Source: Candidatus Planktophila sp. | GTDB taxonomy: Bacteria > Actinomycetota > Actinomycetes > Nanopelagicales > Nanopelagicaceae | Length of the DNA stretch: 46,800 nt | Assembly (NCBI GenBank): GCA_017858325.1 | Contig: JAFMBT010000012.1 | Span: 1 to 46,800, forward strand | Direction: 5' to 3' | Shown here: positions 18,779 to 42,705 of the stretch, piece by piece | Numbering within the stretch: position 1 is the stretch's first letter | How the letters are laid out: the number at the start of each line of letters is the position of its first letter | Notes under the pieces: model-generated | Databases searched by the model: none | The model's input: only the letters and a program-made list of their open reading frames with translations | Told to the model about the DNA's origin: nothing | Position numbers and translations under genes: made by a program

Positions 18779-19783
18779 TTAGCGACGAATACCGGCGCTA
18801 CGAAGATCGGATAAGCGAAGAGTCCCAGTTTTGGCATCATCTTCAGCCGCTAGATAGAGGCGCTGGATAGCGATAATAAATGCTTCGGCGAGAGCGTCAC
18901 GAAATTCAGGAGTTGCTAAATTTTTTGCATCGTGTGAGTTACTTAAATAACCACAGTCGACTCGGATCGATGGCGCTTGAGTAAGACGCAGAAGGTCCCA
19001 TGTTTTTGGGTGTGACCTGCAATTAAGAAGACTGGTGCGCGCAGAGATTTCCCGTTGTAATAACGAGGCAAATCGCTCTCCAACAACTGAGTGAACTCCA
19101 TGGGCTTGGCTGCCGTAGAAATAAGTCGCTACACCTTGAGCCAAAGGGTTTGCATGTGTATCTGTATGAAGTGAGATAAAGAGATCTGTCGGATTTGCAT
19201 TTGTGAATGCGATTCGTTCACTTTCGCTAGGACTGTTATGAGGACCGCGCGTAAGAAAAACACTGGCACCAAGTGCTAAAAGGCGACCCTCTATTCGCAC
19301 CGCGATGTCATAAACAATTTCAGCTTCACCAGGGTTACTACCTGGATCAAGCACAATTACTTTATTTGCAAGGGCCGGGCCTCGGGTTCGAACAGCAGCA
19401 CTTTCACGCAGTTGAGCTGGTGCGCCACCTGAAACAATTTTAGTTAAACGAATAAGTCCGATTATTGTCTCCGGCCCACATCGACCATCTACCTTCGCAC
19501 CGACTGATTTCTGAAAATCTTTAATAGCATTTTCGGTACGAGGACCATAGATTCCATCTACTCGCCCACAATCAAAACCCATATCAGTCAATCGTGATTG
19601 TAGAGAGGCAACGTCATCGCCGTGCATAAGCGAGTTGCTCTGAAGATAGAGCGAACGATCACCTAGTTTCCAGCGCGCATCTTCTAAAGCACGCTCAGTC
19701 GCAAGATCAAGAATACCTGTAACGTTGAGCCCACGCTCTTGCTGAAAAGAACGAATCTGATCAGGGGTAAGCAAGGGATCCAT
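18779..19783 (-). CDS. cwlM: CwlM-like cytoplasmic amidase homologue (probable peptidoglycan-synthesis regulator)
   Basis: A 334-residue protein with two peptidoglycan-binding modules (about 5-35 and 50-112, the latter with DGIYGPRTENAIKDFQ) and an amidase_3 fold (about 140-312). No signal peptide or membrane segment is present, so it is cytoplasmic. It is the mycobacterial CwlM orthologue by order (trxB-trxA-cwlM-parB) and by segments TWDLLRLT, VDCGYLSN and RLYL. The first zinc loop is lost: DPGSNP (146-151) replaces DPGHGG and the following stretch is shortened. The last Glu position is Asp275, while His206 remains. Amidase activity is therefore unlikely. The tail keeps Thr-Gly-Thr (319-321) like the PknB-phosphorylated tail of CwlM, which regulates MurA and MurJ. 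murJ is in the same operon. Confidence 0.88.
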   Translation of the reverse strand: MDPLLTPDQIRSFQQERGLNVTGILDLATERALEDARWKLGDRSLYLQSNSLMHGDDVASLQSRLTDMGFDCGRVDGIYGPRTENAIKDFQKSVGAKVDGRCGPETIIGLIRLTKIVSGGAPAQLRESAAVRTRGPALANKVIVLDPGSNPGEAEIVYDIAVRIEGRLLALGASVFLTRGPHNSPSESERIAFTNANPTDLFISLHTDTHANPLAQGVATYFYGSQAHGVHSVVGERFASLLQREISARTSLLNCRSHPKTWDLLRLTQAPSIRVDCGYLSNSHDAKNLATPEFRDALAEAFIIAIQRLYLAAEDDAKTGTLRLSDLRSAGIRR

Positions 19784-19802: not shown

Positions 19803-20123
19803 TTAAATAAATGCTTCAAGGTCTTTAAGAAGCGCTGGCTTTGGCTTAGCGCCAATAATGGTCTTAACAACCTCACCATTGACATAAACGTTGAGCATTG
19901 GGATCGATGTAACACCGTATTTAATGGCGATCGCAGACTCTTCATCCGTATTGAGCTTTACAATCTTAATCTTCTCGCCATACTCATTGGAGAGATCTTC
20001 CAGAATTGGCCCAATTGCACGGCATGGCCCACACCATTCAGCCCAGAAATCTACAAGGACAGGGATGCTGCTCTTGAGAACAACGTCGTCGAAATTTGCC
20101 GCCGTTACCTTACTTGTTGCCAT
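19803..20123 (-). CDS. trxA: Thioredoxin
   Basis: A 106-residue thioredoxin with the redox motif WCGPC (Cys31, Cys34) and the cis-Pro segment TSIPML. It reduces protein disulfides and is itself reduced by the thioredoxin reductase encoded just upstream (52-base gap). It has no signal peptide, so it is cytoplasmic. The start is ATG at 20123. trxB-trxA-cwlM adjacency is the mycobacterial arrangement. Confidence 0.98.
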   Translation of the reverse strand: MATSKVTAANFDDVVLKSSIPVLVDFWAEWCGPCRAIGPILEDLSNEYGEKIKIVKLNTDEESAIAIKYGVTSIPMLNVYVNGEVVKTIIGAKPKPALLKDLEAFI

Positions 20124-20175: not shown

Positions 20176-21096
20176 CTAGTGAGAGAGAAATTTTTCAGCG
20201 TCTAGCGCCGCTTGGCAGCCAGAACCTGCAGCAGTGATTGCTTGACGGTATGTGTGATCGACAAGATCTCCGCATGCAAAAACTCCGGGTAAGTTGGTCT
20301 TGGTCGAGCAACCTTCAACCTTGACGTAGCCCTCATTATCACAATCGATCTGCCCGATAAGGAGTTCGCTACGTGGAATGTGTCCAATAGCAACAAATAG
20401 GCCGGTGAAATCACGTTGTGAGAGCTCACCTGTGAGAGTATTTCGCAAAGCGAGTGCTTCAACTTTATTCTCTCCCAAAATATCAATAACTTCGGTGTTC
20501 CATAACATTTCAATCTTTGGATTGTTAAACGCTCGGTCTGCCATGATTTTAGAAGCACGCAATGTGTCGCGGCGGTGAATTAATACCACCTTACTTGCAA
20601 ACTTAGTTAAGAATGTCGCTTCTTCGACCGCTGAATCTCCACCACCGACTACAGCAATTGTTTGATCTCTAAAGAAGAAACCGTCACATGTAGCACACCA
20701 TGAAACTCCGCGCCCTGAAAGACGATCTTCATTAGCGAGCCCAATATGTCGATAGGCCGAGCCGGTGGCGAGAATTACTGCACGCGCCTGGACGACATTT
20801 CCACTTCCATCTTTAACTGTTTTGATCTCACCCTTGAGATCCATCTCAACAACATCATCTGTAATCAACTCTGTACCAAAACGAGCAGCCTGTTTACGCA
20901 TACTCTCCATTAATTCAGGGCCCATCACTCCATCAACAAAGCCAGGAAAGTTCTCGACTTCAGTTGTAGTCATTAGCGCTCCACCGGCGGTAACAGAGCC
21001 CTCATAAAGGATAGGGTTTAGCTGCGCACGTGAGGCGTATATAGCAGCGGTATATCCGGCAGGCCCAGAACCGACAATAACAAGGTCACGAATCAT
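20176..21096 (-). CDS. trxB: Thioredoxin reductase
   Basis: A 306-residue FAD/NADPH disulfide oxidoreductase. The FAD-binding motif is [10 protein letters not shown] (9-18), the redox-active pair is Cys134 and Cys137 in WCATC, and the NADPH motif is [10 protein letters not shown]. The C-terminal FAD segment is [10 protein letters not shown]. It transfers electrons from NADPH to thioredoxin. It starts at ATG 21096, 17 bases after murJ. In Mycobacterium sigM and its anti-sigma gene lie between murJ and trxB; here they are absent. Confidence 0.98.
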
Positions 21097-21113: not shown

Positions 21114-22748
21114 TTAAGTGCCCTTCCTCTTCTTTAATAGCCCTCGCCCAAATTCAGCGAGAGTTGCAATCTCTGAGATTTTAAATAACTTCGCAAAGAG
21201 AAGATAGAAAACTCCGCTTGCTGCCAATACAACGCAGAGACGAAACGCTCGCAGGAGAGCCGAAGAGTCAGCACTCTCCCATTTAAGTAAATACACCAAT
21301 GCAAAGAGAGGAGCTATTGATAAAAGGGAGGCAACAAATAGTTTTGCGTGATGTCCAATAAAGGTAGAGATAGCCAATTTTCCGATATGTTTCTTCAAAA
21401 GTCCCAGCGTAATAAAGAGACCAACGATATAACTTACCGAAAAAGCGATACCCAGACCAATGGTTACCTGCTGGCTACTGAGTGTGTAGAGAAAAACGTA
21501 GGATAAGGCAACTGAGATGATATTAATTATTAAGATTGAAACAACCTGTGTTCGCGTATCTTCGAAAGCATTAAAACCACGAATAAGAATTAAATTTATT
21601 GAAAATGCAACAAGGCCAAGACTCAAGGCTGAGAGAACTTGTCCGATATACCGGGAATCCTCTAAGGAAATTCCAAAATAGAGCGCCTCGGTCATCATTG
21701 GTCCAAAGAAGAATAAGGCAACACCGCTGGGCACGGTAACAACACCGACCATTTTAATTGTTCTAACTAACTGTTTACGAACCTCTACTACATTTTTTTC
21801 GATTGCCAACTTAGAAAGGTGAGGAAGAAGTGCAGTGACAATTGAGATCGTAACGATTGAATAAGGTAGCAACATGATGTAGTAAGCAGCAGTAAATGGA
21901 GTAAATCCAACTCCTGTTGTGATTCCTTCTTGTGAACTACGAACCGCCGCACTTGTCGCAACGTTTACCGTGACTAGATAACCAAGCTGTGAAATCAAAA
22001 CATAGATCAAGGTCCATCCAGCTAGTGAGAATGATTTACCTAAACCGTACAATCCAAATCGAATGCGCAGATGAATACCAGAACGCCTAACGACAGGAAT
22101 GAGAATCAGCGCCTGCACCACAATTCCAAGAGTTGTTCCCCACCCCAGAAGTTGAATCTGGGCATCAGTGATTGTCTCTAGCGTGATCGAATTCTGGAAA
22201 ATAAGAACCCCAGAAAATACTGCAATTACAACGAGATTATTGGCAATTGGAGCCCACATGAGAGGGGCAAAAGAACCGCGCGCGTTGGCAACCTGTCCTA
22301 ACATCGTGAATAGACCTAAGAAGAAAATTTGTGGAAGACAATACCGAGTAAAGGCAATCGCGATCTGGTTCTCTGCCTCAAAACCCACCGTTGAAAATTC
22401 TGGTGCATAAAGTCGCACGAGAGCAGGTGCAAAGATAACTCCAACAATAACTAAAAGTAAAAGTATTCCCGAAATTGTTGTTACAAGGCGAGATGCAAAT
22501 CCATCACCACCATCTTCATCGGCGAAAGAGCGAACCAGTTGTGGAACAAAGATTGCAGTGAGTGCTCCACCAACAAGTAAGTTATAGAGAATGTTCGGCA
22601 TCGTATTTGCAACGTTGTAGGTATCTGCAAGGAGGGCAGTACCCAATACTGCGACGACGAGGATGGCACGGAAAAAACCAGTGATCCGAGAAAGAATCGT
22701 GCCAATTGCCATAACGCCAGAGGCACGGAAGAGTTCATTATTTTTCAT
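21114..22748 (-). CDS. murJ: Lipid II flippase MurJ (MviN family)
   Basis: A 544-residue MOP-superfamily membrane protein with about 14 hydrophobic segments, starting MKNNELFRASGVMAIGTILSR. The N-terminal arginine in ITGFFRA and the GGALTAIFVPQL segment are MurJ hallmarks. It flips lipid II across the cytoplasmic membrane for peptidoglycan synthesis. The protein ends soon after the last membrane helix. It therefore lacks the pseudokinase and extracellular domains of mycobacterial MviN. It overlaps the upstream DUF6049-like gene by four bases and is co-operonic with cwlM, whose mycobacterial product binds MurJ. Confidence 0.95.
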   Translation of the reverse strand: MKNNELFRASGVMAIGTILSRITGFFRAILVVAVLGTALLADTYNVANTMPNILYNLLVGGALTAIFVPQLVRSFADEDGGDGFASRLVTTISGILLLLVIVGVIFAPALVRLYAPEFSTVGFEAENQIAIAFTRYCLPQIFFLGLFTMLGQVANARGSFAPLMWAPIANNLVVIAVFSGVLIFQNSITLETITDAQIQLLGWGTTLGIVVQALILIPVVRRSGIHLRIRFGLYGLGKSFSLAGWTLIYVLISQLGYLVTVNVATSAAVRSSQEGITTGVGFTPFTAAYYIMLLPYSIVTISIVTALLPHLSKLAIEKNVVEVRKQLVRTIKMVGVVTVPSGVALFFFGPMMTEALYFGISLEDSRYIGQVLSALSLGLVAFSINLILIRGFNAFEDTRTQVVSILIINIISVALSYVFLYTLSSQQVTIGLGIAFSVSYIVGLFITLGLLKKHIGKLAISTFIGHHAKLFVASLLSIAPLFALVYLLKWESADSSALLRAFRLCVVLAASGVFYLLFAKLFKISEIATLAEFGRGLLKKRKGT

Positions 22749-23851
22749 CTACGCCCCTTTCTTATCCGTCGATACGTTTGCGCACCAGCTCCGATAAAGA
22801 GTAGAACGGCGGCCCCGGTTGTAAACCACGCCACTCTTGAATCGATCAAGGTCATGGTCAGGGATAACTCTGAAGCGGGTCCAAGCCATTGCCCCTTGGA
22901 GTTTGAGAGAACTGTCTTCACGTTTGTCTCACCTGAGGCGATAACGGTAAATGGAACTGCAAATTGAGTTCGTGAATTAGGTTCGAGGGTGATTTGTCGC
23001 ATGTGATTAACAAGAACTTTGATGTTAGAGACGCGGAAAATAAGATTCACAGTGACCGCTGAAGTGAAACCATTTACCAGCGTGAGTGGTACATCTACAG
23101 TTTCGGATGTAAGTGTGTACTTTCCAGGATTAACTCTTAACTTCTCTCGCTGTTGGGCAACACCAACAACGGCGCTTTGCGCAAACTTTTCAGAGAGCCC
23201 ACCATTTATTGATGGAGAGAGAAGGATCGCTAATCGTGCACGAAAGAGTTCGAGCTCAGGAGCCGTCACTACAGTAGAAAGCCGTGAGATCGCCTGTCTA
23301 TTAATAGTGTAGTTTTTTCTAAGCGGGCCACTAATTTTTGCGCTTTTACGGTTAGTGTACGACTTATCAATTTCTATCGTTCTGCCAGTATGGAAAGATA
23401 CTCTCTCTGCTCCGTAGGAAAAGTAAAAGAGCAGTTCACTTGGGGCAAGTTCTTTTGCTATAGCAAGATCAGGATTTCCATAAGCAATGGGCGTGATCTG
23501 GGCCCCGGCGGTAGCAATCTTTAATTGATCGAGGAAAGCAATAGCAACTTCGACCCCCTGCCCATCTGATTCATCTACCAGTTCATAACCACTTGCCATA
23601 GCTGCGACTTCATCTAGAAAAGCGCCATCAATAATCCAGCGAGTTTGAACAGGTAAAGGAGTAAAAATAAGAGAGCCAAGCCTGCCTTCTGGGGCGAGCA
23701 AGGTCGCTAAGTCATCGCTAATAAAGCGACCATCAATGAGTTGATGTGGTTGCTCAATAAGTTCAACTGTACGCACTGCAGATGCAGCTGTTTGGGGGAG
23801 AGAAATTCCACATAAAGTGAGGAAGAGAAGCAGAAAAGAGAACTTTTTCAC
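22745..23851 (-). CDS. Secreted membrane-anchored DUF6049-like protein
   Basis: A 368-residue protein with a signal peptide (about 1-24, hydrophobic run then TAASA), a long extracytoplasmic domain and a C-terminal membrane helix (about 342-360) followed by RRIRKGRR. This topology anchors it on the outer face of the cell membrane. The segment ITPIAYGNPDLA resembles the DUF6049 family, whose mycobacterial member sits between mutT4 and mviN. The same place is filled here between the NUDIX gene and murJ. It is much shorter than the usual 700-800 residues. Function is unknown; linkage to murJ suggests an envelope role. It overlaps both neighbours by four bases. The family assignment rests mainly on synteny. 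Confidence 0.75.
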   Translation of the reverse strand: MKKFSFLLLFLTLCGISLPQTAASAVRTVELIEQPHQLIDGRFISDDLATLLAPEGRLGSLIFTPLPVQTRWIIDGAFLDEVAAMASGYELVDESDGQGVEVAIAFLDQLKIATAGAQITPIAYGNPDLAIAKELAPSELLFYFSYGAERVSFHTGRTIEIDKSYTNRKSAKISGPLRKNYTINRQAISRLSTVVTAPELELFRARLAILLSPSINGGLSEKFAQSAVVGVAQQREKLRVNPGKYTLTSETVDVPLTLVNGFTSAVTVNLIFRVSNIKVLVNHMRQITLEPNSRTQFAVPFTVIASGETNVKTVLSNSKGQWLGPASELSLTMTLIDSRVAWFTTGAAVLLFIGAGAQTYRRIRKGRR

Positions 23852-39746: not shown

Positions 39747-40373
39747 ATGACTCGCATTCTCGTCGTCGATAACTATGACTCATTTGTCTTTAATCTGGTG
39801 CAATACCTGCAACAGTTGGGTGCAGAGTGCACCGTTTTTCGCAACGATGAGGTCGAAGCAGTAGAGGCTCAGAATTTTGATGGAGTGCTTATCTCCCCAG
39901 GACCTGGAACCCCAGAAGAGGCTGGCGTTAGCGTTGCGATGATTAATTACTGCGCGCAGAATTCAATTCCACTTTTTGGTGTCTGTTTAGGCCATCAAGC
40001 TATCGGTGTTGCCTTTGGTGCAACTGTTTCTCGTGCACCCGAACTTTTACATGGCAAGACCTCGTTAATTAAACATAACGGAGCAGGAGTCTTGAAAACT
40101 CTGCCATCACCATTTACCGCAACTCGTTATCACTCTCTTGCAGTGGAAGAACAAACTATCGGAGACGAGTTAGAGATAACCGGTAGAACAGAGTCGGGTG
40201 TAGTGATGTCGATGCGTCACAAAAGCTTACCTATCGAAGGTGTGCAATTTCATCCTGAGTCAGTTCTTACCGAACATGGTCACCTTATGCTGGCAAACTG
40301 GTTAACAGGGTGCGGGGATAAGGAAGCGCTCGCAAAATCAGTGGGTCTAGCACCAGTACTTGGAAAAGCTTAA
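39747..40373 (+). CDS. trpG: Anthranilate/aminodeoxychorismate synthase component II (glutamine amidotransferase)
   Basis: A 208-residue class I glutamine amidotransferase that supplies ammonia. The nucleophile is Cys79 in FGVCLGHQAIG, and the His-Glu pair is in VQFHPESVLTEHG (about 170-182). The partner, TrpE or PabB, is not in the window, so tryptophan or folate synthesis cannot be separated; the enzyme may serve both. It has the position next to pknB seen in mycobacteria. Its stop overlaps the pknB stop by four bases. Confidence 0.9.
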   Translation: MTRILVVDNYDSFVFNLVQYLQQLGAECTVFRNDEVEAVEAQNFDGVLISPGPGTPEEAGVSVAMINYCAQNSIPLFGVCLGHQAIGVAFGATVSRAPELLHGKTSLIKHNGAGVLKTLPSPFTATRYHSLAVEEQTIGDELEITGRTESGVVMSMRHKSLPIEGVQFHPESVLTEHGHLMLANWLTGCGDKEALAKSVGLAPVLGKA

Positions 40374-41926
40374 GGCGAAGGCGCGCGATTAATTGTAATT
40401 GTTACTGAGTTACCGATTGTTTGCGTAGTGCCAGCTTCAGGAGCTTGGCGAATTACTACATCAATCGGTTGAGTTGGGTCATAGTCGTAGAACTCTTTGA
40501 AGAGAAAGTCTGAGTTGAAGAGAAGAGTTTTTGCTTGGATTGCTTCAATGCCAACAAGATTTGGTACTTCAACTTCACCATTTGCAATTGTCAGAATTAC
40601 CCCAGATCCTGCTGTAATAGTCGAGCCTGCAAGTGGAGTAACTTCCAAGACAGTGCCTTGCGCCTCCTTTGATGAGGTAGCAATTGTTTGTGAGACCACC
40701 AAGCCAACAGCGGCTAGCGCGGCGCGTGCATCGGTAAGATCAAGTCCAATTAGCCCATCAGGAACAATTGCATTTCCTGGACCATCAGAGATCGTGAGCA
40801 CAACACCCGAACCTGGGCGAATATCACTTGATGCAAGTGGAATCTGACTTGCTATTCGTCCGGCGGGAATTCGCGGGTCATGTGCGCGCGTGACTGTAAC
40901 TACATATTCATTAAGTGCTTCACGTGCCTGATCTTCTGTCAAACCAATTACGTTGGGGAGTTCAAAGCCAACACTTGGCTCTGATGCTCCATTTACGGAA
41001 AGTCCCACTATCGCCAAGAGAGAGGCGATTAGGACAGAAACACCGGCGATAATAAAGCTACGGCGCTTGAAAGGATATGCGCGCGCAATTTTTGTAGTGA
41101 CCTGAACGCCATCTCTTAAACGTTTAAGATCTGCCAACATAGAGAGCGCATCTTGATAGCGCGCATCTGGACTCTTACTCAGCGCGACAGCAAGTACTGT
41201 CTCAACATCGGCCGGTAAATCAGGCTGAATCGAACGCACAGGCGGGAACTGCCCTGATACATGTTGTAGCGCAATTGAAACAGGGGTCTCTCCTGTAAAT
41301 GGAGGGCGTCCTGTAAGAAGTTCATAGAGCAGACAACCGGTTGAATAGAGATCACTTCGTGCATCTGCAACTGAACCCTGTGCTTGCTCTGGCGAAAGAT
41401 ATTGCGCTGTGCCGACAATGTTCCATGTACTTGTAAGTGTGGCTCCTAGATCATCGATCGCCCGAGCAATGCCGAAATCCATTACCTTCACATCACCGTT
41501 GCCGGTGATCATGATGTTGGCAGGTTTTATATCGCGGTGAACAATTCCGCGCATATGGGAGTAATCAAGAGCTTCAAGGACTCCGATGACAATCTCGAGC
41601 GCACGATCACATGCAACGCGCTCACCGTTGTGAATGAGTTCGCGCAAGGTATGCCCGGTGACTAACTCCATCACAATATATGGCGCAGGATCTTCCCCAG
41701 AATCATAGACAGCGACAATGCCTGGGTGATTCAAACCAGCAGCAGCCTTCGCCTCTTTTCGAAAGCGCGCAACAAAGGAAGGGTCTTGTGCCAAATCACT
41801 ACGGAGTATTTTGACGGCGACTTCACGCGAAAGGCGTTGATCTTGCGCGGTATAGACATCTGCCATTCCGCCCGTGCCAATCATTTGGCCAAGAAGATAA
41901 CGATCACCTAAGAGTTTTGCGATCAT
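40370..41926 (-). CDS. pknB: Serine/threonine protein kinase PknB with PASTA domains
   Basis: A 518-residue receptor kinase. The kinase domain (about 9-270) shows the Gly-rich loop GTGGMADVY (17-25), Lys39, HRDIKPANI (130-138) and DFG (150-152), with a Thr-rich activation loop. A juxtamembrane stretch precedes one membrane helix (about 291-313). The outside has three PASTA modules (about 322-385, 390-450, 453-515), one fewer than mycobacterial PknB. PASTA domains sense muropeptides or lipid II. The ATG overlaps pstP by four bases. It probably controls cell-wall synthesis, with CwlM, encoded in this window, as a candidate target. Confidence 0.97.
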   Translation of the reverse strand: MIAKLLGDRYLLGQMIGTGGMADVYTAQDQRLSREVAVKILRSDLAQDPSFVARFRKEAKAAAGLNHPGIVAVYDSGEDPAPYIVMELVTGHTLRELIHNGERVACDRALEIVIGVLEALDYSHMRGIVHRDIKPANIMITGNGDVKVMDFGIARAIDDLGATLTSTWNIVGTAQYLSPEQAQGSVADARSDLYSTGCLLYELLTGRPPFTGETPVSIALQHVSGQFPPVRSIQPDLPADVETVLAVALSKSPDARYQDALSMLADLKRLRDGVQVTTKIARAYPFKRRSFIIAGVSVLIASLLAIVGLSVNGASEPSVGFELPNVIGLTEDQAREALNEYVVTVTRAHDPRIPAGRIASQIPLASSDIRPGSGVVLTISDGPGNAIVPDGLIGLDLTDARAALAAVGLVVSQTIATSSKEAQGTVLEVTPLAGSTITAGSGVILTIANGEVEVPNLVGIEAIQAKTLLFNSDFLFKEFYDYDPTQPIDVVIRQAPEAGTTQTIGNSVTITINRAPSP

Positions 41927-42705
41927 AAGAGCGCCGTTCCGAAAAGCTCGAGGTTTTCATCGCGTGGCTGGCCGGTAGCGATATCGGCAACAATAACGGT
42001 GACATTATCTGGCGCGCCTTGCACATATGCGGCATCAACTAGGGCAGTCACCGCATCATCCGGTGAAAGCGACTGGGCTAGAGAAAAAATCTTCTGATCA
42101 TCGAGAACGCCTGAAAGTCCATCACTGCAGAGGATAAATCGATCAGAGTCGTGGGCGTCAAAGAGATGTAGCCCAATTGAGAGTGAGCCAGCGCCCATGA
42201 GCGCTTGTGTCAACATAGATCGTTGCGGATGTTCTGCCACATCCTTAGCCTCAATAGTTCCAGCCGCTAACAACTCTTGCATCACAGTGTGATCGACGCT
42301 CAATTGCTCAATAGTTGTGCCTTGAATTCGGTAGAGCCGCGAGTCTCCGATATGAAGGAGGGCTAATTTGTTATCACGAATAAAGAGAGATGTGAGAGTT
42401 GTGCCCAATCCAACTAAATCCGGATCTTCATCGCTCGCCTCTTTCAGCGCTTCATCAATATCCTCAATGGATGAATTAAAGAGATCATCTGCCGAGTCTT
42501 GATCGACTTCTTGATCTAAAAAAATTGCTGCTCTGCGAGCAAGTACTAAGAGTGCAATCGAAGATGCAACTTCTCCTCCAGCATGTCCACCCATACCATC
42601 GGCAACTGCAAGCAGGCGCGGATGAGTGAGTGCTCCATCTTCATTTCCATTACGAACCAATCCAATAGCCGAGCGCGCAGCGCTTTGGAAATAGAGGCTA
42701 TTCAT
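41923..42705 (-). CDS. pstP: PP2C-family Ser/Thr protein phosphatase PstP-like
   Basis: A 260-residue PPM phosphatase. Metal-binding motifs are RNGNEDG (about 18-24), ADGMGGHAGG (35-44), CSDGLSG and DNVTVIVAD. It reverses phosphorylation by PknB. In mycobacteria PstP has a membrane helix and an extracytoplasmic domain; here the protein ends with the catalytic domain, so it is soluble. It is the first gene of a pstP-pknB pair. FHA, rodA, pbpA and pknA, which share the mycobacterial operon, are absent here. It is divergent from pheA across 58 bases. Confidence 0.95.
   Translation of the reverse strand: MNSLYFQSAARSAIGLVRNGNEDGALTHPRLLAVADGMGGHAGGEVASSIALLVLARRAAIFLDQEVDQDSADDLFNSSIEDIDEALKEASDEDPDLVGLGTTLTSLFIRDNKLALLHIGDSRLYRIQGTTIEQLSVDHTVMQELLAAGTIEAKDVAEHPQRSMLTQALMGAGSLSIGLHLFDAHDSDRFILCSDGLSGVLDDQKIFSLAQSLSPDDAVTALVDAAYVQGAPDNVTVIVADIATGQPRDENLELFGTALL

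Follow-up and report, generated by a model that had tools for sequence, protein, structure and literature searches.

The cwlM gene of the window, the 46,800-nucleotide stretch of Candidatus Planktophila DNA that was analysed, probably encodes a Planktophila-group orthologue of CwlM that resides in the cytoplasm, carries an Amidase_3 fold without a complete zinc site and, because that site is incomplete, most likely does not cut peptidoglycan, serving instead as a kinase-controlled regulator of early peptidoglycan synthesis. The predicted product is a degenerate protein with peptidoglycan-binding and Amidase_3 domains and a C-terminal phospho-tail. Its parts are as follows:

18779..19783 (-), cwlM, 334 aa, ATG start (open reading frame and translation, Pfam, AlphaFold2)
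19463..19621 (-), PG_binding_1, residues 55-107, the better of two stretches (Pfam; structural match to 6tci)
19325..19348 (-), zinc-loop remnant DPGSNPGE, residues 146-153 (alignment to relatives and solved amidases)
19166..19168 (-), His206, the retained second zinc His, in SLHTD (alignment)
18986..19039 (-), RT..CRxHxKTWDLLR patch, residues 249-266 (conservation; alignment to five solved amidases)
18956..18958 (-), Asp276 at the position of the catalytic, last Glu (alignment)
18782..18850 (-), C-terminal tail, residues 312-334, with Thr319 equivalent to Mtb T382 and Thr321 to Mtb T384 (alignment)

In the published accounts, Mtb and Msm CwlM (Rv3915 and MSMEG_6935) share with the window protein the peptidoglycan-binding and Amidase_3 domains, the lack of a signal peptide, a degenerate zinc site, a T-G-T tail and the trxB-trxA-cwlM gene order. 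Boutte et al. (2016) reported that mycobacterial CwlM has not conserved the key zinc residues, that an Msm allele stripped of all four zinc-coordinating residues still complements, that actinobacterial CwlM homologues are without secretion signals, and that most clades retain the phospho-motifs whatever the state of the zinc residues (PMC4946905). An earlier note on this DNA had proposed that the regulatory role of CwlM can outlive zinc binding. While the degraded site and the kept tail agree with this proposal, the central claim is already in print for mycobacteria, since Boutte et al. described CwlM regulation without the zinc site (PMC4946905). As far as searches of titles and abstract openings show, what is new is the stepwise erosion of the zinc site in Nanopelagicaceae, with excision of its loop, together with the absence of mycobacterial partner features. 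The literature search found no paper on CwlM in freshwater bacteria, and the titles and first abstract lines of work on Planktophila peptidoglycan contained nothing on CwlM. EnvC has a LytM fold, which differs from that of CwlM. EnvC-type regulators are likewise dead hydrolases that act as regulators (cited in PMC4946905), but in a different compartment.

The assignment to CwlM made in the earlier note was borne out by the domains, the synteny and the tail Thr (Pfam, alignment). PG_binding_1 was matched in two stretches (E 3.7e-24), with the N-domain of SleB (6tci) as a structural match (Z 13.8), and these domains precede Amidase_3, as in the CwlM family generally. The first of them is about 34 N-terminal residues shorter in the window protein and several related CwlM proteins than in other genera. 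The Amidase_3 match (E 2.6e-28) covers the profile from position 22 onward only, and the first zinc loop appears to fall outside it. The genes upstream of cwlM are as follows:

19803..20123 (-), trxA-like, immediately upstream of cwlM (WCGPC motif read directly; synteny)
20176..21096 (-), trxB-like (CATC motif read directly; synteny)
21114..22748 (-), murJ, 544 aa, without the intracellular domain (TIGR01695, E 2.7e-83; length comparison)

The order murJ-trxB-trxA-cwlM is co-directional, with intergenic gaps of 17, 52 and 19 bases. On the other side, parB is separated from cwlM by an aminotransferase-like gene and, like a parA-like ORF, is encoded on the opposite strand; the trxB-trxA-cwlM order near par genes that marks the CwlM family is present. 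The shared operon with murJ had been taken to point to a regulator; the arrangement itself stands, but the murJ-trxB-trxA-cwlM order is common across the class and cwlM-murJ linkage is widespread, which tempers that argument. No trx genes were seen in four f18 loci among those listed, which have short flanks. Adjoining murJ is a DUF6049 protein (22745-23851, -) of 368 aa that matches only positions 552-702 of the 708 in its profile, the C-terminal part.

Active Amidase_3 enzymes are extracytoplasmic. The N-terminal hydropathy of the window protein is 0.71, compared with 2.37 for a signal-bearing control, so that by hydropathy it has no secretion signal; because its N-terminus is not hydrophobic, the protein is probably cytoplasmic, as had been suggested from the letters. 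Values of up to 2.23, near the control, were obtained for some family rows with script-chosen starts, and these count against the regulator reading. No second Amidase_3 gene was found at E <= 0.001 in the host genome (1.336 Mb, 99.9% complete). The same genome has two adjacent NlpC/P60 matches (L211, L212; G000 contig 18), and with the sole Amidase_3 being degraded, much of the wall cutting may fall to these endopeptidases.

Active zinc Amidase_3 enzymes use a His-Glu-His triad. The five solved amidases that were aligned have D(P/A)GHG with the first His, Glu about 14 residues later, SIH, and a final Glu. Comparison with relatives and active amidases, which the earlier note had suggested, confirmed its observation at the DNA and protein level: DPGHGG has been replaced by DPGSNP, the first zinc His is gone, and the loop after it is shorter by about 10 residues. 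The triad is therefore broken, but Glu153, the zinc Glu inside DPGSNPGE, and His206 remain. Since two of the three ligands are present, the statement that the zinc site is lost holds for one ligand and the loop only, and the protein may still bind metal weakly. The final Glu is indeed Asp (Asp276), as first described; however, zinc-intact members of families f11, f13, f14, f16 and f21 carry Asp too, so this residue is not evidence of zinc loss.

Structure modelling, another of the suggested checks, predicts that the Amidase_3 fold is retained. The AlphaFold2 model of the window protein, built with 58 aligned rows, has a mean pLDDT of 85.4 and a pTM of 0.66, and a model of the zinc-intact CwlM of genus g6 has a mean pLDDT of 82.0. 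Among the structural matches to residues 130-317, the first 24 rows have Z 18.7-25.7 for aligned lengths of 151-179 residues, with Foldseek in agreement; all 24 are amidases or amidase-type endolysins, and the best, 9a7d, is itself an integrative model. CwlV, CwlD, AmiA/AmiC, Ami1/Rv3717 and LytH have the same fold as window CwlM (Z 22.2-24.6).

The loss of the first His is shared by nearly the whole family. Amidase_3 was matched in 97 of 101 Nanopelagicaceae genomes, including 67/67 of good quality, and CwlM was present in 81/81 genomes searched of the order, every one of them Nanopelagicaceae. Of the 97 family genomes with a match, 73 entered the alignment (the window, 71 others and G088) and 24 were left out. 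Outside the family, 89 class genomes gave a match, and 88 of them were aligned, the weak G206 match being dropped and only one of the two G205 copies being used; 46 of the 148 class genomes gave none at 1e-15. The alignment thus held 80 Nanopelagicaceae rows (window + 71 + 8) and 88 rows from other families of the class, 168 in all. L111 and L142 each carry one in-frame stop and were represented by their best open piece, unmended. In one relative, L022:1325-2205, the cwlM frame is broken after residue 61, and this row was excluded.

Of the 168 rows, 72 have all three residues of the His-Glu-His set. Within Nanopelagicaceae the set is retained only in genus g6 (3 rows), and the first His is absent from the other 77 of 80, so its loss in the window protein is more than chance. 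The erosion is graded. The loop is retained without its His in g2, g4, g5, g9, g10, g11, g13 and g14, and is partly shortened in g15 (grade 1); it is deleted in 18 of 19 g1 rows and in g7, g8, g12, g16 and g17 (grade 2); and the second His or the Glu has also gone in g2, g5, g7, 7/8 g8 rows, g12, g14, g16, g17 and part of g1 (grade 3). Among these relatives the second His has become Lys, Arg, Asn, Ser, Asp, Gly or Ala, and the zinc Glu has become Asp, Asn, Ile, Val, Gln or Ala. In short-loop rows the first-His column holds Ser in one alignment and a gap in another, with the same conclusion.

Zinc loss was also observed outside the family, in f4 (11/11), f9 (1/5), f25 (2/2), f29 (4/4) and f34 (1/2). 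Mycobacteria are among the members of f4, where L192 and L194 contain the Mtb phosphopeptide of PMC6180346 (one of them script-checked). The f4 pattern differs from that of the window protein, which has lost the loop but retains the second His: all 11 f4 rows keep the Glu and lack both His, and most keep the loop (deleted in L133). In a quick tree, with SH-aLRT support only and with the zinc-loop, His2, Glu2 and tail columns left out, a clade of 76 rows, all zinc-lost, had support of 99. Zinc-lost g15 and zinc-intact g6 join at an unsupported node (21), leaving one or two losses within Nanopelagicaceae, and the whole-tree minimum was 6 changes for zinc state and 8 for the short loop. One g1 member, L207, retains the long loop at a weakly supported position (38), which suggests separate loop deletions. 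L138 (G108, f9; RSQE) has lost the zinc site independently, the other four members of its family being zinc-intact, and it retains the tail Thr. In L157, L158, L162, L163, L167, L190 and L198 (f25, f29 and one f34 member) both zinc site and tail are lost, and CwlM in these rows must function by some means other than the known switch.

The phospho-tail of the window protein, by contrast with its zinc site, was found kept, TGT included, as the earlier note had claimed. The tail reads KTGTLRLSDLRSAGIRR and retains TGTLRLSDLR, in which T319-G-T321 is a C-terminal Thr phospho-motif of the PTG or TGT type; the Mtb numbering was verified on a mycobacterial relative of 406 aa, in which residues 382, 384 and 386 are Thr. 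Thr319, Gly320, Leu322, Asp326 and Leu327 are present in 80/80 family rows and Thr321 in 77/80. In 21 named-contig rows, five of them identical to aligned rows, Thr319 occurs in 21/21 and Thr321 in 18/21. The full TGT motif is not invariant, because Thr321 is replaced by Met in L019-L021 and by Val in g6. In published work, Mtb Thr382 is described as critical for FhaA binding (PMC6180346), and an Msm T374A mutant as slow-growing (PMC4946905).

Genus-weighted conservation in the 77 zinc-lost family rows was 1.00 each for Thr319 and Thr321, and 0.71 and 0.54 for the zinc Glu (Glu1) and second His (His2), the 42nd and 28th column percentiles; only these two ligands give a fair test, since rows were selected by the first His. 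The 69 zinc-intact rows from other families give, by definition, 1.00 for each of the three ligands, and 0.68 for Thr319 and 0.23 for Thr321; many zinc-intact orthologues keep the tail Thr, and their second tail position is usually not Thr. Co-evolution of the second Thr with zinc loss was suggested by Thr321 in 77/77 zinc-lost family rows and 10/11 f4 rows, but is not claimed. The tree gave 3 independent pairs (4 on all branches) with a median p of 0.5, and counterexamples include L138 and L019-L021, where zinc is lost and there is no second Thr, and members of f24, f26 and f35, where zinc is kept with TGT.

Candidates for the enzymes that would act on the tail are encoded in the window:

40370..41926 (-), PASTA Ser/Thr kinase, made the PknB candidate by its position next to a GATase gene and the phosphatase
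41923..42705 (-), PP2C phosphatase, PstP candidate (Pfam; NCBIfam Stp1/IreP model, E 1.4e-57, below cut-off)

In mycobacteria pknB adjoins trpG, and the window kinase adjoins a glutamine amidotransferase gene. The two genes lie 20.6-22.9 kb from cwlM, consistent with the earlier statement that pknB and pstP are about 20 kb away, but a second PASTA kinase of 628 aa is encoded elsewhere (L210:1465-3351(+), G000 contig 27), these being the only two Pkinase matches in the genome. With the same NCBIfam model the second kinase scores 555 bits and that at 40370-41926(-) 532; because the former scores higher, either could act on CwlM. The PknB candidate would phosphorylate Thr319, and perhaps Thr321, PstP would undo this, and the switch of CwlM from one binding state to another on phosphorylation would tune early peptidoglycan synthesis, MurA being the first candidate target. 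A non-catalytic, kinase-controlled regulator, perhaps of MurA, is thus a plausible description of the window protein.

A MurA gene is present in the host genome (L128:1468-2757(-)), with Asp at the catalytic Cys position, a change from which fosfomycin insensitivity is predicted. The same Asp is reported for Msm and Mtb (PMC4946905). Other features of the Mtb circuit were not found. The acidic REEEL pair (Mtb E178/E179), part of a site described as needed in vitro for MurA activation (PMC12723410), is replaced by S128 and A129, and the N-terminal phosphosite T43 falls in a gap in 80/80 family rows. FhaA was not found in the genome, where the sole FHA match is a 167-aa protein nearest to OdhI (NCBIfam, below the model cut-off). 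The MurJ intracellular linker that binds CwlM is absent from the 544-aa window MurJ. Among the loci listed, at most four per group, at least 36 complete family rows have a MurJ of 516-580 aa (of 41 listed, 36 are complete, 4 are cut by the stretch edge and L075 has only 175 aa), at least 14 complete rows from other non-f4 families have 531-588 aa, and four f4 rows have 1184-1262 aa, two of them reaching the stretch edge; among the complete rows listed, long MurJ occurs in f4 only. The MurA and MurJ binding experiments that the earlier note suggested assume mycobacterial interfaces (MurJ linker, REEEL pair, FhaA) that are absent or changed here. Parts of the mycobacterial partner model are possibly lineage-specific. 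Together with the report of amidase activity for Mtb CwlM, discussed below, and a 2025 study in which the effect of CwlM on MurA in vivo was only modest (PMC12723410), these absences count against the regulator reading.

The same absences, with the tail and the RT..CRxHxKTW patch kept, favour an alternative in which CwlM is a non-catalytic scaffold for a lineage-specific partner, such as the OdhI-like FHA protein or the MurJ core, and does not regulate MurA. FHA domains have a preference at the +3 position from the phospho-Thr, and Leu322, at +3 from Thr319 and present in 80/80 rows, would suit an FHA ligand. Such a scaffold is a serious but tentative alternative, given that MurA is present, cwlM-murJ linkage is widespread and the partner is itself hypothetical.

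The patch is conserved regardless of the state of the zinc site. For R249, T250, H258, W262, L265 and R266, respectively, conservation was 1.00, 1.00, 1.00, 1.00, 1.00 and 0.99 in the 77 zinc-lost family rows; 0.96, 1.00, 0.92, 0.96, 1.00 and 0.92 in the 72 zinc-intact rows; 1.00 each in the 11 f4 rows; and 0.83, 0.83, 0.83, 1.00, 1.00 and 1.00 in the 7 zinc-lost f25, f29 and f34 rows. The five solved amidases aligned keep His-Glu-His and the last Glu, but all lack His258, with Arg in three, Val in one and Glu in one, and all lack Trp262, with Phe in four and Tyr in one; Leu at 265, by contrast, is close to generic among them. Zinc-intact Actinomycetes CwlM (for example f18, f24; g6) has the same domain order and the RT..CRxHxKTW patch, but retains His-Glu-His. 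As judged from conservation, the patch may be a functional site with or without zinc, and is offered as a lead. Nanopelagicaceae thus form a natural series from an intact zinc site to none, across an order in which all 81 genomes searched have the gene, and the series suggests that what matters in CwlM without catalysis is the tail Thr and the CwlM-specific patch. A more speculative proposal, which we consider rather improbable, is that CwlM of this family is a stripped-down switch without the REEEL pair, MurJ linker, FhaA and T43. The fold would then serve for binding alone, working through the phospho-tail (Thr319, Leu322, Asp326-Leu327) and the patch (R249 T250 ... H258 ... W262), the latter an ancestral, zinc-independent partner or ligand site throughout Actinomycetes. 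If true, this would point to a core CwlM mechanism so far undescribed.

Residual enzyme activity is an unlikely alternative to the non-catalytic regulator. Glu153 and His206, with another ligand, could support a weak or altered metal amidase acting on cytoplasmic muropeptides, in a fold predicted to be intact, and Mtb CwlM has been reported to have amidase activity although its key zinc residues are missing (Deng 2005, cited in PMC4946905). However, the second His and the Glu are variously replaced in family relatives while the gene persists, and both columns show ordinary or low conservation.

Window cwlM is under strong purifying selection and is maintained, not decaying. Between the window and L002, dN is 0.016 and dS 0.518 for the whole gene (dN/dS 0.03), and 0.010 and 0.471 for the amidase domain (dN/dS 0.02); against L004, dN is 0.055 and dS 1.586, and overall dS was undefined for four other pairs. 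Ordinary decay of a gene drifting to loss in a reduced genome, for which the progressive loss of catalytic residues and loop might speak, is largely refuted and extremely improbable in view of the low dN/dS of this one close pair, retention in 67/67 and 81/81 genomes, the invariant Thr319, and zinc loss in large genomes too.

Genome reduction was considered as the cause of zinc loss and rejected. The earlier note had treated the reduced genome as notable context, but the ligands were lost in multi-megabase mycobacteria-like genomes (f4, 11/11) and kept in the small-genome family f5 (1.4-1.7 Mb, 2 rows); since members of f4, f9, f25, f29 and f34 have lost the zinc site too, reduction alone is insufficient. 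Several metagenome-assembled genomes labelled Bifidobacterium breve or Streptomyces griseus (L007, L011, L018, L019) bear a Nanopelagicaceae-type CwlM, and their labels are probably wrong.
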